Below, one piece after another: positions 1,174 to 26,865 of a DNA stretch of 26,865 bases. Positions within the stretch are counted from its first letter, which is position 1. Every line of letters starts with the position of its first letter. Source of the DNA: a virus; the IMG/VR virus record IMGVR_UViG_3300037628_000316, positions 1 to 26,865 of that record; one strand, 5' to 3'. The translations under genes were made by a program, and so were the position numbers. The notes beneath the pieces are model-generated. The model had not been told where the DNA came from, did not search any database, and saw only the letters and a program-made list of their open reading frames with translations.

Positions 1174-4109
1174 TATTCAAAAATACCCCTTACACCCTCA
1201 GCTATTGGTATAACTGGTGTTTCAGTAGGTGGCGGCAACTGTGAATTAACATTATCGAGTAATATTCTTACTTGACCGCTATCCTCTAAAAATTCTGTAT
1301 CAGTTGCTAAATTACCAGCAGCGGCTGAAATGAAAGTTAAAACCTTCTGTGGCTCCATTGCAGCAGCACCACTAACGAAAGTGTCAAATAAACCTTTAGA
1401 CATTAACAAGTTCGCAACTATTCTATTCTCAAGAATAGTTTTTACTGCATTGAGCGATAGCTGTCTTAATCCAGCAACAGCTTCGTTTGCTTGTATGGAA
1501 GTACCCGCATCAGCAACATCGCCCATAATCTCAAGTATAATCTGTGTATCCTGCAAAAACCTTTTGTCCTTTGGTGTCAACAGGTCAAATACCCCTGCAT
1601 CTTCAAATTCTTTAACCAAAGCTGAATATGACGAAGCGTTTAACTCTCTACCCGCTGAGGTTAGCTTGCTTCCCCTCTCGAATAATTCATTATATATACC
1701 CGCTCTTATCGTTCTACCAATAGGACTTTCTGCGCCGCCTTGGTTTTTAATAACAGTTTTCAATGTTTCAATAGTTTGGGTGCTTCCAGTATCAATAGCC
1801 TGGCCAACAGCCCTACCTAGCTGAGCTTGCTGTCCAACCGCTTTACTTAGCCCCAATTGATTTAACCTGTCAAAATCAGCCGCCGCTTTTCTTATTTCTA
1901 TTAGTTGTTTTGGATTGAATAATTTTCTTATATAATCAGGGTCAGCACCATCTAGTCTTGCTAATATTTGGTCTGGCTTGGCAAACAAATCACCCAATAT
2001 AAAGTTTTTAAGAGCCATCATACCCTTGCTGTTAGCCGCTGGTTGGCCTAATCCCCTAATAACTTGGTCTATGGTGTCCACATTTGAAGCACTGGCTAAA
2101 TCGAGAAATCTAGCGGCAAAGGTAGCAGGTTCATTGTTGGCGGCAGACACAAAGGCTTGTGCTACCAAAGGCAATTCTCTTATTCTAAACCTCTCAGACG
2201 CTAATCCACTTGCCTTTTGCCAAGCGGCTACAAACTCAGGGCTACTGTTTAATGGGTTATTTAAAACATCATCAAATGCTTTACTTAGTTTTGCCGCCGC
2301 TCTATTGGTTTGATTTCGTGGCATACCAATCTGCGGTACTGATAACTCACTCACTCTCTGTTTTAAAGCCAATAGTTGATCGGTAGCTGAAACCATTGTC
2401 AATTCACCACCAGCCACTAATTGCCTTAAGTCTTTTCCATCAGCTATGAATTTACGCATTTCAGCTTTTGATAATGTCCTGCCTTGGGGTGTTATAAATA
2501 CGGGGCCAAGGTCAGTCGGGTCTATATTAAGAATTTCGTCTACAACATCAGATATTTGACTATCAAGTAGCTCTAGGTTTTTAAAGTTCTCAATTCCAGC
2601 TTCGACTCTATTAATAGGTTGCCCAAACTCATCTAGTAATTCTGTATCAACCGTTGTGCTTGGTGCTGTTTTACGCAGTGGTGTGCCTGTTTTAGTACGA
2701 CGTGCAATATTCTGTAAGCCGCCAATACTAAACACTGGCTCTTCTATGTTACGAGCAATGGAATAAGCCCCATTAACCCTAGCTAATGATTCTGCATCAT
2801 ATTTAGCAAACGCTTCTAAAAGCTGATTACCACGGCTTCTTGAACCCCTTGATGCTACTGATTTTCCTGATGCTGAGTCGATAAGCACCCCAAGACCACC
2901 TTCTGTATTCATCTGCCGAATAATTCTTCTCTGTGCGCCCGCTTCAGCATCTAGTAATATTTGTCCCGATACTCCACTATCACTGATAATATCCGCCTGT
3001 TTTATGAAAATAGAATTAACCCCTGCGGTAAGTTGGTCAACATGAGACCTTAATGCTGTTGATATAGCCCGTGCCTGCCTTCCCATAATTTGTATTACAG
3101 GATTTTTGCTAACCATATCTAAGGTGGGGGTTAGTCCAAGGTTTTTAAATGCGTCTACTGCCTTGCCACCATTAGCTCTTAGCGAGAAAACAGACCCGCC
3201 TCTAACCCTTCGGGAAATAGCTTGCAATCCATGATCAAATACTAATACCCCACCGAACCCAAAAGCCCCCTTTACCGTACCTTGTGCTAACATTTCATCA
3301 AATTCTTTTAAAGAAACCCCTTCTTCACGCTCAATTAACTCTTGCCCTATGTCACCAACAAAACTTGCTACGCCCTCCATTGCGGCTCTTACAAATATTC
3401 CCCGCCCCCTTGTAAGAACAGTCACAGCCGCCGCCCCCGCTATTGTACCTAAGTCAGCAACAACAAACTCCATAACATCAGTTGCAAATTCTTTCAGGCT
3501 TTCATTTTCAGGCTCAATACGTTTCCAAACCCCGTCTGGGGTTTCTTTTAATAAAAACTCTCTTACACCTGATGCTATTGGTACTAAAACTAAAGACCCT
3601 TGAGGAAAATGTCTTTCAAAAACCCCTGCTTTTTCTTCAGGAGTTTCAGCCCTTGCAAAATCAAATCTAAACCCCGTACTAGCGTCACCAAAAGGTATAG
3701 ACCTTTGGTTTATTTGAAACCCTGTTTTTGATAAAGAATTTAACATTACATCATCATCTAAGGAAACACTGTCACCACCACGCCTACCAACCTCTTGTTG
3801 TATCTGCAAGCCCTGCTCTCTGCTAACTAAACGTGCTTCAATTTGCTCTGGTGTTTGTGGCTGTGATAACCCTCTTTCCTCAATGGGTTTCCATAGAGGT
3901 AGGTGGTGGAGAGGACTGTGCAGTTCTTGGCCTATTAACCCACCTGCACCACTTAGACGTTCTTGTCTTTTTATCACTGCAATGTCTGAGGCGGTTGTTA
4001 GGGCTTCACCTGAACGCTCAAGCACATCTTGAGTAGCACCAAGGTCGGTAGTTACACTTTCCCTAGCTTTTTTCAAGCGTTCTTCAATTTCTTCAGGAGT
4101 TAGAGCCAT
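1173..4109 (-). CDS. large internal virion / DNA-ejection-type protein
   Basis: 978 residues, the largest protein here, with no recognised catalytic motif. It is mostly predicted helical and Ala/Glu/Arg-rich. One hydrophobic, Gly/Ala-rich stretch at about 213-232 could insert in a membrane, and the protein ends in a Pro-rich tail. A short motif occurs twice near the N-terminus (TPEEIEERL at 4-12, TPEQIEARL at 86-94). It is the third of three large proteins lying between the tail genes and lysis, the place where podoviruses encode internal core/ejection proteins. Start and stop both sit in TAATG overlaps, so it is translated with its neighbours. The role is inferred from size, composition and order. 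Confidence 0.6.
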   Translation of the reverse strand: MALTPEEIEERLKKARESVTTDLGATQDVLERSGEALTTASDIAVIKRQERLSGAGGLIGQELHSPLHHLPLWKPIEERGLSQPQTPEQIEARLVSREQGLQIQQEVGRRGGDSVSLDDDVMLNSLSKTGFQINQRSIPFGDASTGFRFDFARAETPEEKAGVFERHFPQGSLVLVPIASGVREFLLKETPDGVWKRIEPENESLKEFATDVMEFVVADLGTIAGAAAVTVLTRGRGIFVRAAMEGVASFVGDIGQELIEREEGVSLKEFDEMLAQGTVKGAFGFGGVLVFDHGLQAISRRVRGGSVFSLRANGGKAVDAFKNLGLTPTLDMVSKNPVIQIMGRQARAISTALRSHVDQLTAGVNSIFIKQADIISDSGVSGQILLDAEAGAQRRIIRQMNTEGGLGVLIDSASGKSVASRGSRSRGNQLLEAFAKYDAESLARVNGAYSIARNIEEPVFSIGGLQNIARRTKTGTPLRKTAPSTTVDTELLDEFGQPINRVEAGIENFKNLELLDSQISDVVDEILNIDPTDLGPVFITPQGRTLSKAEMRKFIADGKDLRQLVAGGELTMVSATDQLLALKQRVSELSVPQIGMPRNQTNRAAAKLSKAFDDVLNNPLNSSPEFVAAWQKASGLASERFRIRELPLVAQAFVSAANNEPATFAARFLDLASASNVDTIDQVIRGLGQPAANSKGMMALKNFILGDLFAKPDQILARLDGADPDYIRKLFNPKQLIEIRKAAADFDRLNQLGLSKAVGQQAQLGRAVGQAIDTGSTQTIETLKTVIKNQGGAESPIGRTIRAGIYNELFERGSKLTSAGRELNASSYSALVKEFEDAGVFDLLTPKDKRFLQDTQIILEIMGDVADAGTSIQANEAVAGLRQLSLNAVKTILENRIVANLLMSKGLFDTFVSGAAAMEPQKVLTFISAAAGNLATDTEFLEDSGQVRILLDNVNSQLPPPTETPVIPIAEGVRGIFE

Positions 4110-22054: not shown

Positions 22055-22290
22055 ATTTTATCTGGCAATGTGAAGTTATTTTTAGTGTGTTTTTTTCTCA
22101 GTGCAACAAGTTTTTTACTAAAACCTAAGGCTAGTTGGGAATGCAATACATCAAGTTCGTTCATATATTCTTGAACTTTGGTTAGACAGTCGGGGCAATA
22201 AATAGCAGGAACTACATGTCCTACAGGCTCTAGACTGGACATTGTATCCTCTTGTTTGCCACAACCATCACAAATATATTTATGAGCCAT
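22051..22290 (-). CDS. small Cys4 zinc-finger-like protein
   Basis: 79 residues from the ATG at 22290; an upstream in-frame TTG at 22317 is less convincing. Two CxxC pairs (C7-x2-C10 and C32-x2-C35) with 21 residues between them form a zinc-ribbon-like unit, followed by a helix (EYMNELDVLHSQLALGFSKK) and a basic tail. It overlaps the TerL end by 11 bases. It could act as a nucleic-acid-binding packaging accessory or a small regulator. Family not assigned. Confidence 0.6.
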   Translation of the reverse strand: MAHKYICDGCGKQEDTMSSLEPVGHVVPAIYCPDCLTKVQEYMNELDVLHSQLALGFSKKLVALRKKHTKNNFTLPDKI

Positions 22291-23929
22291 AAGCCCCTGA
22301 CCTTCTTCCTGCACCAATAATAGGTGCGCCGTTTTTCAACATATTAAAGTCTGGTCTATAATTACCCAAATATTTAAGCATGGTAGGGTAATCATCAAAT
22401 TTTTCTCTTGGGGTTTGTTTTACGTCACGTTCCTGATTTTTTTTATATTCGCCCCATGAATATCTTTTTAACTGATAAATTGTATTTTCGCAACGTTTAT
22501 GAATATGAAGCCGTGGTTTTCTTAAATGTGGGTCGGGCTTTAACATACCATTTACCCATGAGCGTCCCACTGAGCTATCATCTGCAAGTTCTACATAAAT
22601 TCCACATCTAGCAAATTCTTCTTGCCATGTATCGCCCCGTGTTTGTCCTGCGGGTGAGCGTCCCATATTGGGGTCAACCAATCTTAGAGATGCGTGTATT
22701 CCATATTGACGCTCAATTTCATTAATATATTCCCTCATATTCTCGGTTTGTCCTTCAAACTCACCATCAGCCACCACCCAACAATCATCATTAGGGTCTA
22801 TTGCCACCCACATAAACATATGGGGTTTACGAGGATGGGGGTCTAATAACCACACTACAGGCCAAGAGGGGCTAATATCAAATTCTTGCACATGGCAATA
22901 TGTTTCTAAATCATCAGAACCCGTTATCGGACAAATCCATCCCTCCATAGGAAGTACGTTTTTGCCTGCTTTAAACGACCAAACCTCTTCATGGTCGGTA
23001 AATCCTGGATGAATTAAATTAGAAAAGCGTATTGGTTGCCCTAAAATACGCACTCGTTTCATTTCTTCATCCCATTTATCCATTTGTTTAGCAATGGCAT
23101 CTTGGTCTAGATGGGGGTTATCGGTAGTGTAAAGCTCAAACCAGTCTATATCAGGGTCACTCGCAGCCTTGTCGTATATTTCATCATAAATCCAATCAAC
23201 AGGAATAGCGGGATCGTCAGGCCACGTCATTGCTAAAATGATTTTGCCATTAACACGCATGGTACGGGCTTGATTTTCGGTAAAAATAGGGTATGTAGGC
23301 GGTTCATCTAGCATTACAATATGATAATCTCCAGATGCAAAGTCTTCGGGATCATTGTCGTGAGACATAAATTGGATTTTTGAATGTCCTAGAACCTTTT
23401 CCCTGTCGTTAGGGTCACGACACAGCACCGTTAAGGTACGCAACTTCTCAGACCAAGACTTTTTCCAATCGCCATCAATCAAGCAATCCCTTGGAACCCA
23501 CCCCCAATGACCCTGAGAACCGCCGATAGGAGCCATACCCGTCCATTGGTTCCATTTTAGCTTAGGAAGCATAATAGGGTGCATTACGGTTGTTAGCGAT
23601 TCCACCACAATACGGGTGTTTATCGGCCCACGGAACTTTTTTTCTGATAAGTGCTTACAGCTATCAGGAAACACTCCAGTAGCACACATTACAAGCTCCA
23701 CAAGGCAAGCTTCAGACTTACCACTGCCATTTCCGCCCCCCGCTCCGATAATATGACAATCCGACGAGTGCATTCTCATGTGACGCTCAGTAATAGGTTT
23801 ATAATACTGGATTTGATTTACCTTGCGATCATCCTCAGCTAGACCCACTACCTGATTTAACAAGGCCTCAAACTCAAAATCTCCGAGCTTTCCTATGGCC
23901 TCGCCTGTTAAATCAGATAAATCAGACAT
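22280..23929 (-). CDS. terminase large subunit (packaging ATPase and nuclease)
   Basis: 549 residues. It would drive DNA into the head by ATP hydrolysis and cut the concatemer. The ATPase domain has Walker A G65-GNGSG-K71-S72, Walker B I204-V-M-L-D208-E209, and a coupling motif LAMTW near 232-236. The C-terminal RNase H-like nuclease shows acidic residues in LLDPHP (D363), LVDPNMG (D419) and FDDYPTMLKY (near 515). The start overlaps the end of the Ntn hydrolase gene by eight bases. Full length with no missing motif. Family firm; the packaging mode (cos or headful) is not decided by the protein alone. Confidence 0.93.
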   Translation of the reverse strand: MSDLSDLTGEAIGKLGDFEFEALLNQVVGLAEDDRKVNQIQYYKPITERHMRMHSSDCHIIGAGGGNGSGKSEACLVELVMCATGVFPDSCKHLSEKKFRGPINTRIVVESLTTVMHPIMLPKLKWNQWTGMAPIGGSQGHWGWVPRDCLIDGDWKKSWSEKLRTLTVLCRDPNDREKVLGHSKIQFMSHDNDPEDFASGDYHIVMLDEPPTYPIFTENQARTMRVNGKIILAMTWPDDPAIPVDWIYDEIYDKAASDPDIDWFELYTTDNPHLDQDAIAKQMDKWDEEMKRVRILGQPIRFSNLIHPGFTDHEEVWSFKAGKNVLPMEGWICPITGSDDLETYCHVQEFDISPSWPVVWLLDPHPRKPHMFMWVAIDPNDDCWVVADGEFEGQTENMREYINEIERQYGIHASLRLVDPNMGRSPAGQTRGDTWQEEFARCGIYVELADDSSVGRSWVNGMLKPDPHLRKPRLHIHKRCENTIYQLKRYSWGEYKKNQERDVKQTPREKFDDYPTMLKYLGNYRPDFNMLKNGAPIIGAGRRSGAYGS

Positions 23930-24362
23930 CGTTTAAACTCAACACATCAACGCCAAGTCCGCAATTTCTATCAAGTTTAATTGCCAATTCTACAGCCTCT
24001 CTTGGTGATTTACCCAATGTCATAGCAGATAAAGCGAAATCACCTCCTGAACCACCTATGAAAAAAGGTAAGTTAATTTTTACAAAATCATGCTTTAAAA
24101 GATGTTGTATGCCATGCTTTTTTGAAATTGTCATAAAATCATATCCTACATCTTTTTCGTCAGGCCTGTCATCTAAAGTTGCCTCTTTTTTTACATATAA
24201 TTTAAACCACTCAATTAATCTTTGTCCATAATCTACGTCGCCAGCGATTCCTACAATATATTCACCAACTATAAAAACCTTACAAACAGGAAACGACTGT
24301 CCAAACATCCGAGCCTTACGGTCTGCCGCCATTGTTACTCCGTCAGTTGCAATTACCGTCAT
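23922..24362 (-). CDS. HslV/proteasome-like N-terminal nucleophile hydrolase
   Basis: 146 residues, slightly shorter than bacterial HslV. After removal of Met1 the N-terminal Thr2 (MTVIATDGVTMAADRK) is the expected nucleophile. D14 in AAD and K28 in CKVFIVGE match the positions of the catalytic Asp and Lys of the Ntn fold, and IGGSGGDFALSA (102-113) is the conserved GSGG turn. It should be a threonine-type peptidase. Similar free-standing genes occur next to terminase genes in other podovirus-like phages. No HslU-type ATPase is in the window. AAGAGG lies eight bases before the ATG, and the gene overlaps TerL by eight bases. A head-maturation role is inferred. Confidence 0.85.
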   Translation of the reverse strand: MTVIATDGVTMAADRKARMFGQSFPVCKVFIVGEYIVGIAGDVDYGQRLIEWFKLYVKKEATLDDRPDEKDVGYDFMTISKKHGIQHLLKHDFVKINLPFFIGGSGGDFALSAMTLGKSPREAVELAIKLDRNCGLGVDVLSLNDV

Positions 24363-24405
24363 ATTAAATACCTCTTTTTAATTTCGCTGATTTACTATTG
24401 TTTTT

Positions 24406-24472: not shown

Positions 24473-24847
24473 CTACCCATCAATTATCTCACCCTCAATC
24501 ACAGGAACCGATATCCCTCGCATCCTAGCCTGCTCCAAAATAATAGGCAACAACTTATTAATCGTACGCCTATCATCATTAGAAACAATCTGCGTCGGCT
24601 CACCCATCAATAACTGACGCCTGTCAAACATAACCTTAACTAAATCAGATAACTGCTTAACACTCGCATCACGCAAAGTCGCCTCATCTAAAAAATGTAA
24701 CGCCAAACTCAAACGCTTCTCTATATCAGACAATAAACTCTCGGTCGTCATCTTCTTCTGAGCATCATAACCAACCAGAGGAGCCTCTACCAACGCACCC
24801 TCCCCACGCAATGCTGCGACACTTACATCTAAATCATCCTCTGACAT
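24473..24847 (-). CDS. terminase small subunit-like protein
   Basis: 124 residues and the first gene of the late block. An acidic N-terminus precedes a helical core (SLLSDIEKRLSLALHFLDEATLRD, then VKQLSDLVKVMF). The segment DRRQLLMGEPTQIVS (75-89) and the terminal IEGEIIDG occur in small helical proteins encoded directly upstream of terminase genes. Small terminase subunits bind the packaging site and stimulate the large subunit. No helix-turn-helix is clear. AAGGA lies eight bases before the ATG. An unrelated regulator or early structural protein remains possible, so the call rests mainly on position. Confidence 0.5.
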   Translation of the reverse strand: MSEDDLDVSVAALRGEGALVEAPLVGYDAQKKMTTESLLSDIEKRLSLALHFLDEATLRDASVKQLSDLVKVMFDRRQLLMGEPTQIVSNDDRRTINKLLPIILEQARMRGISVPVIEGEIIDG

Positions 24848-24881
24848 ATCTAATTCCTTTATCTAACCATAACCCTTTTCT

Positions 24882-24909
24882 AAAAAAAATTCAAAAAAAA
24901 TTTAAAAAA
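24882..24909. promoter_or_regulatory. phased A-tracts (probable bent DNA)
   Basis: Three A-runs on the plus strand (882-889, 893-900 and 904-909 of the 24-kb block) have centres about 10 to 11 bases apart, so their curvature should add up. They lie in the 5' leader of the TerS-like gene, directly downstream of the late TATAAT box. Bent DNA is typical near promoters, origins and packaging sites; which applies here is unknown. Confidence 0.5.
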
Positions 24910-24915
24910 GTTTTA

Positions 24916-24941
24916 ATTATAAGCCTCAGGGTGGGACCCCT
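24916..24941 (-). promoter_or_regulatory. candidate late promoter with GC-rich inverted repeat upstream
   Basis: A perfect TATAAT (24916-24921, minus strand) lies 69 bases before the TerS-like ATG. No TTGACA-like hexamer exists at the right distance; that place is taken by a GC-rich inverted repeat (AGGGT-GGG-ACCC, 24928-24939) in otherwise AT-rich DNA. This layout is typical of activator-dependent phage late promoters, with the repeat as a possible binding site. A cos-type site is an alternative reading of the repeat. Confidence 0.4.
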
Positions 24942-24955
24942 CGCATACGAACACG

Positions 24956-24978
24956 CCCCCACCACCCATGCCCAACCC
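24956..24978 (-). other. G-quadruplex motif on the late strand
   Basis: Read on the minus strand there are four G-runs: GGG (978-976), loop TT, GGG (973-971), loop CAT, GGG (967-965), loop TGGT, then GGGGG (960-956). This fits the canonical G3+N1-7 rule with short loops. It lies about 110 bases upstream of the TerS-like gene in AT-rich surroundings. If transcribed as late RNA it could fold; as DNA it could mark packaging or a replication block. Confidence 0.6.
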
Positions 24979-25012
24979 AATATTCAGCCACATATTTACC
25001 CCTATATCAGGT

Positions 25013-25038
25013 CATAATTTAACATAATAGTAATTATG
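25013..25038. promoter_or_regulatory. three CATAAT hexamers at 10-bp steps (operator-like)
   Basis: CATAAT at 25013-25018 and 25023-25028, then its reverse complement ATTATG at 25033-25038. The starts are exactly 10 bases apart, one helical turn, and the last two form a perfect inverted repeat with a four-base spacer. This is the pattern expected for a cooperatively bound regulator facing one side of the helix. The binding protein is unknown. Confidence 0.5.
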
Positions 25039-25215
25039 CGGTTGCAAAACTGGTTGTTATCAATGACTTAGCTAAAAACGCAATGCTCGCTCCTTTAAAT
25101 AGTGCCAGTGAGGTTATAAAAGCAGCTCTCGGCCTTTTCCTCATGTTAACCACATTTGATGTGCGTGTGTGATTTCGAGATGTAAGTGCCTAACCGACAC
25201 GATTACCCCCTCACG

Positions 25216-25343: not shown

Positions 25344-25423
25344 AACTGGAACGCTTAGAAAAGTTTCGTTTAAATTCAATACATTATATCTTTTCTTACC
25401 CTATTTGTCAAATAAAGCTTGTA

Positions 25424-26637: not shown

Positions 26638-26707
26638 AAAGCCGTGGAGAACGTACCACCACATACCTACTAAGAATATTCCACTTAACCGCCCGAAAGG
26701 AAAAGGA

Positions 26708-26865
26708 ATGGACTATACAACATTAAATAAAATCAGAAAACATTCACCATGTGAAGATGGCTGGACTAAATTACTCAGCTCTTTAGGTAAAACTAAAGCT
26801 GATAATGTTCGTTTATCTTACAAGCATATTCTAGAAATTAATGGTTTTGAGGATGCTCTATGGAC
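26708..26865 (+). CDS. conserved phage hypothetical protein (partial, truncated by window edge)
   Basis: The first 52 codons of a gene that runs off the right edge, after a purine-rich AAAGGAAAAGGA ribosome region. The visible part has a distinctive pattern: IRKHSPCEDGWTKLLSSLGK, then TKADNVRLSYKHILEINGFE and DALW. Small phage proteins with CxDGWxKLLxxLGKTxADxxxL and ILExNGxxDALW are widespread hypotheticals in phage and prophage early regions. Function is unknown. The reading frame is clean and the motif makes the gene likely real. Confidence 0.65.
   Translation, partial: MDYTTLNKIRKHSPCEDGWTKLLSSLGKTKADNVRLSYKHILEINGFEDALW

Follow-up and report, generated by a model that had tools for sequence, protein, structure and literature searches.

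A G-rich tract ahead of phage terminase genes is one part of a conserved composite DNA element, with a dif-like site beside it in several phages

A compact G-rich tract lies on the late (minus) strand just upstream of the terminase genes in a 26,865-nt viral DNA (IMG/VR record IMGVR_UViG_3300037628_000316; the whole stretch is here called the window), which raises the question of whether it acts as a G-quadruplex (G4) or belongs to a larger signal. The late operon on this strand encodes a small-terminase-like (TerS-like) protein, an HslV-like peptidase, the large terminase subunit (TerL), two small proteins, and a portal protein (Pfam SU10_portal) (Table 1). The TerS-like protein has no above-threshold match in Pfam or PHROGs; under that label, given in a first-pass annotation of the sequence, it has homologues standing directly before TerL in relatives (31–46% identity). 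The tract matches, by regular expression, the canonical G4 pattern (four runs of at least three G, loops of 1–7 nt), with runs of 3, 3, 3, and 5 and loops of 2, 3, and 4, exactly at the place and on the strand where that annotation had reported it; the distance to the ATG of the TerS-like ORF (24847), estimated there as about 110 bases, is 109 nt. Its G4Hunter score is 2.17, and the top-scoring 25-nt stretch of the entire 26.9 kb begins at 24956. The further claim that such a motif is unlikely by chance also holds: when the 634-bp intergenic region was dinucleotide-shuffled, 0.35% of the shuffles produced a canonical G4 (P ~0.0035), and the figure was 2.2% when shuffling was confined to the G-rich 213-bp part; for a short-loop G4 at any position of the window, the chance level is 3%. 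The window has a second canonical G4 (23488–23513) inside terL; this one consists of the codons of the conserved TerL motif GxxGHWGWVP and is therefore codon-driven.

Table 1. Features around the G-rich tract and in the late operon, in window coordinates.
Feature	Position	Strand	Sequence or remarks
Sigma70-type promoter, predicted	25383–25411	minus	TTGACA-17-TATAAT; 12/12 consensus match; aimed at late operon
Motif X, IHF-like	25058–25070	minus	TAAGTCATTGATA; fits YAANNNNTTGATW
dif-like XerC/XerD site, putative attP	25017–25044	minus	CAACCGCATAATTACTATTATGTTAAAT; 28 bp
Motif W	24970–24980	minus	TTGGGTTGGGC; 5' part of G-rich tract; conserved
G-rich tract	24956–24978	minus	GGGTTGGGCATGGGTGGTGGGGG (exact sequence, read 24978→24956)
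Motif B	24931–24940	minus	GGGGTCCCAC; core GGGTCCC
A4 tract	24912–24915	minus	after motif B at conserved spacing
Three A-tracts, possible intrinsic bend	24882–24909		11-bp phasing; sequence and direct repeats, spacing 11
TerS-like protein	24473–24847	minus	124 aa; first late-operon gene
Large terminase subunit	22280–23929	minus	phrog_6672 match; many relatives

The G-rich tract is one part of a previously undescribed, conserved DNA element before the packaging genes of a tailed-phage family. This element spans ~150 bp and comprises, in order, an IHF-like motif (TAAnnCATTGATA), a G/C tract (GGGTTGGGC or CACCCCCC), GGGTCCCA, and then an A4 tract. Searches with TerL yielded about 80 related contigs, and k-mers upstream and downstream of TerL were compared across 55 phage (TerL) groups; the upstream:downstream counts were 14:1 for GGGTTGGG, 15:0 for CACCCCCC, 6:0 for AGGGGTCCCA, and 5:0 for TGGGTTGGGC. 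Order and orientation of the motifs are fixed: X (TAAnnCATTGAT) comes first, W (GGGTTGGG) or A (CACCCCCC) second, and B (GGGTCCC) last, commonly ~27–38 nt beyond W or A. Upstream of TerL, GGGTCCC occurs on the late strand at 19 loci and on the other strand at 3, compared with 4 and 2 downstream. Oriented motif pairs are present upstream on the late strand at 11 loci (W/A..B), 10 loci (X..B), and 9 loci (X..W/A), and are absent from the opposite strand and from both strands downstream (~575 kb of controls). In addition, 14 of 22 islands have AAAA at +8 to +38 after B, against a null mean of 1.7. L002, the closest of the divergent relatives (72% in TerL), aligns with the window over a conserved block, TAAGnCATTGATA – 13 nt – CGCATAAT...TATTATG, which corresponds to a dif-like XerC/XerD site preceded by the IHF-like motif. 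Taken alone, an 11-mer common to the window and L002 was not significant (P 0.16), and it became meaningful only when the 55 phage groups were added. The position of the element upstream of the terminase genes is conserved, and in most relatives it stands at the start of the late operon; blastn against GenBank phages returned no element resembling that of the window.

The element extends beyond this terminase family. A scan of IMG/VR with the pattern GGCACACCCCCC-N5-35-GGGTCCCR (A..B) returned 11 contigs, six of which carry a TerL of the window's family. Three more have a terminase of another family as the next large-terminase gene found, located downstream in the same orientation, and a fourth contig (L180) encodes a protein closely homologous to one of these terminases. 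On the sequences compared, the element recurs in front of unrelated terminases. The combination TGGGTTGGGC..GGGTCCCRC, also tried as an IMG/VR probe, was discarded: beyond the window's own phage it returned unrelated coding matches only.

Between motif X and the G tract lies a site that fits the dif consensus (PMC2731167), i.e., 28 bp made up of a XerC arm, a 6-bp centre, and a XerD arm. All 18 conserved core positions are matched (18/18), the maximum over 20 shuffles of the window being 15. Of 385 alphaproteobacterial genomes, 13 have this pattern, each in a single copy, and none has its reversed control, so that the pattern is specific for chromosomal dif. Sites scoring at least 15/18 are found upstream of terminase in seven further relatives (L002/L009, L003, L004, L010, L092, L112, and L179), giving 8 of 32 related loci against none in shuffles. 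The element and a dif-like site occur together in the window, L002, L010, and L112; in L010 (L099), five copies of the TAAnnCATTGAT motif are present at 400–1200, two of which flank the dif-like site in inverted orientation. L066 carries the element without a dif-like site, and therefore the element is not simply an attachment site; the near-identical phage G010 has an integrase. No tyrosine integrase or serine recombinase (PF00589, PF00239) was found in the dif-bearing records, several of which are incomplete, and the association between dif-like sites and integrase absence is not significant (P ~0.05 in the first 18 records, weaker in later data). A plasmid-prophage with a Xer resolution site was considered and set aside, as eight records contained no ParA-type partition gene (PF13614). 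The dif-bearing G015 circularises through a 144-bp end overlap. Searches for bacterial prophages gave only two short contigs, both lacking dif-like sites, and no phage integrated at chromosomal dif was seen in ~780 sampled genomes. At the level of titles and abstracts, the literature yielded no description of a dif-like attachment site in a tailed phage. A 36-codon ORF (MRKRPRAAFITSLALF...; 25038–25144, minus strand) terminates within the dif-like site of the window; no homologue of it was found.

The reading that we favour, tentatively, is that the element serves packaging, as its initiation or terminus site (pac, cos, or terminal-repeat boundary), and has a Xer attachment site next to it. 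We infer this role from the linkage to terminase genes across families, the IHF-like composite architecture, the phased A-tracts of the window, and a contig (L095) that ends inside the element core, the only contig end there. The G-rich tract would represent the W segment of a double-stranded element whose duplex motifs the terminase would recognise, and IHF, together with the phased A-tracts, would bend the DNA. The first-pass annotation had suggested that the tract could mark the packaging start; this part of the proposal gains from the location of the tract within an element conserved before terminases, including those of other families, and the emphasis on a G-quadruplex is its weaker part. 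Contig ends show no significant excess that would locate a cos site. Several near-complete relatives close into circles (end overlaps of 127–168 bp) and contigs pass through the element unbroken; thus, the sampled DNA shows no sign of a fixed cos break. The dif mimic, which adjoins the element in the window phage and several relatives, suggests recruitment of host XerC/XerD: these enzymes could circularise the genome or integrate it where the phage has no detected integrase, as in IMEX (integrative mobile elements exploiting Xer) and Jorvik. If this combined reading is true, the element would provide a sequence signature of packaging starts for a large group of uncultivated tailed phages, recurring before unrelated terminases, and Xer-dependent lysogeny, described in the literature consulted for filamentous and tailless phages, would reach tailed phages.

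Two known kinds of system come closest: Xer-exploiting elements and, given the putative packaging role, packaging sites. Known IMEX include CTXphi, VGJphi, TLCphi, and GGI (PMC5357621), and Jorvik is a Xer-using tailless phage of Rhodobacter capsulatus (PMC10589892). The likeness lies in a dif-like site on phage DNA and the lack of a detected integrase in the dif-bearing records, such that host XerC/XerD would serve. However, the IMEX phages named are filamentous or tailless and membrane-containing, and GGI is a genomic island, whereas the window derives from a tailed dsDNA phage; moreover, unlike in IMEX, its dif-like site adjoins a terminase-linked element and is known here from sequence, no integrated copy having been found. 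In phage P1, loxP is close to pac, and packaged ends could carry the site in the terminal redundancy and then circularise. The window resembles P1 in having a site-specific recombination site near a putative packaging start; P1 encodes Cre, whereas the window phage would rely on host XerCD, and headful packaging would be hypothetical here. It is possible, although unlikely, that integrase-less tailed phages place a mimic of host dif inside the packaging-site element, by which each packaged genome would bear the site in its terminal region and host XerC/XerD would both circularise the incoming genome and integrate it at dif. This arrangement would amount to an analogue of P1 lox-pac run by host recombinases, set in a widespread undescribed packaging element.

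Lambda cos consists of cosN plus cosB, the latter with an IHF site. The element shares with it a GC-rich core and an IHF-like site, both ahead of the small terminase gene; however, the lambda IHF site lies between cosN and terS, whereas the IHF-like site of the window is on the far side of the core, and the nick site and R-type repeats of lambda cos are without demonstrated counterpart in the element. The closest cultivated relatives by TerL (~24% identity) are Jasminevirus (Arthrobacter phages Jasmine and Brad) and Microbacterium phage Shocker, whose physical ends lie upstream of terminase. They differ in having direct terminal repeats of 484–1549 bp (Jasmine, L157/L158, 1330 bp; Brad, L161/L162, 1549 bp; Shocker, L159/L160, 484 bp), and motifs W, A, and X–B were not found in these ends.

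The main rival to a packaging site is control of late-operon transcription, since the predicted sigma70-type promoter upstream would read through the region, and the location of the element at the start of the late operon also suits a transcriptional role. The element would then be an IHF-assisted promoter or a leader site that pauses or modifies RNA polymerase, and the G-runs of its non-template strand would favour R-loops, or else a G4 within the leader RNA. The promoter would give a leader of ~530 nt, and a canonical G4 is present on the late (non-template) strand in 6 of 15 homologous islands and on the other strand in none of the 15. Nevertheless, C-runs on the late strand replace the G-run pattern in several islands, no promoter or terminator was found at any fixed place by eye or by scan (nor any intrinsic terminator, tRNA, or Rfam element), and the RNA folding of 24848–25000 is ordinary (z -0.94). 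We regard control of transcription as rather unlikely.

The first-pass annotation had raised the possibility that the G-quadruplex itself is functional, folded in the DNA or in the late mRNA. Folding in the late-mRNA leader is possible, since transcripts from the predicted promoter would run through the tract, and both the high G4Hunter score and the frequency of late-strand canonical G4 in the islands, compared with 1% of GC-matched windows, would fit such a role. This enrichment, however, is inflated, because the islands were picked partly through G-run motifs. An initial check covered the 700 bp preceding terS in each of 15 other relatives; a single one had a G4, 675 bp upstream. The annotation had suggested that the G-runs be compared among relatives, and here the outcome is divided: of the 15 partly motif-selected islands, six have a canonical G4 and nine do not, so the conserved unit is probably not the G4 itself. 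The L066 island has the same TGGGTTGGGC and GGGTCCC motifs, yet is unable to form a G4, and L002 has only GGGTTGGGC; contig G001, which is 99.99% identical to the window, keeps the motif and is uninformative on conservation. Conserved duplex motifs rich in G-runs would fit these data better than a conserved fold. Because the tract is one part of a conserved element beside a dif copy, its four-stranded folding is probably incidental, and its G4-forming potential mostly a by-product of conserved G-runs. We therefore consider a functional G-quadruplex improbable.

A phage replication origin composed of the IHF-like site, the G tract, and AT-rich phased A-tracts appears more doubtful still. The GC skew turns at ~25 kb and AT-rich A-tracts come after the element core, as such an origin would predict; however, divergent transcription accounts equally well for the turn in skew, and the element is linked to terminase genes rather than to replication genes. 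It is highly improbable that the G-runs encode glycines in a small ORF (24993–24913; MWLNIGLGMGGGGVFVCEGSHPEAYN) with an AGGGG ribosome-binding site: its start and Shine–Dalgarno sequence are plausible and codons do account for the second G4 of the window, but the ORF was rejected, as it has no homologue in Pfam or phage records and shares no frame with the aligned L002 island, and the conserved parts are DNA motifs at variable spacing. A functionless chance cluster of G-runs, such as shuffles of the G-rich part occasionally yield, merits equally little credence, because independent phages share the W motif and its distances from X and B, with not one instance in controls.

G001, a longer contig of the same phage (40.2 kb), extends the known genome to 44.1 kb or more, and its early region encodes SSB, a Rad52-type annealase, RusA, a LexA-type DNA-binding protein, and a C5 methylase. 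The window ends at a 165-bp repeat (97%) in the early region, shared between window 26701–26865 and positions 3309–3473 of contig L018; this is part of a repeated gene of the phrog_18326 type, the full-length copy of which (L018, 2924–3466) matches an Imm5-like Pfam family. In the late operon, the peptidase gene between terS and terL (23922–24362, minus strand) is of the HslV/proteasome type (phrog_1040), and a 74-bp duplication (98.7%) around its start (window 24312–24385; L018, 693–767) lies near the other end of G001. Among the relatives, the TerL gene of L014 is interrupted at 286–665 by an in-frame-looking insert that resembles an intein, and a sequence similar to this insert precedes the TerL match in L013 (1–420).
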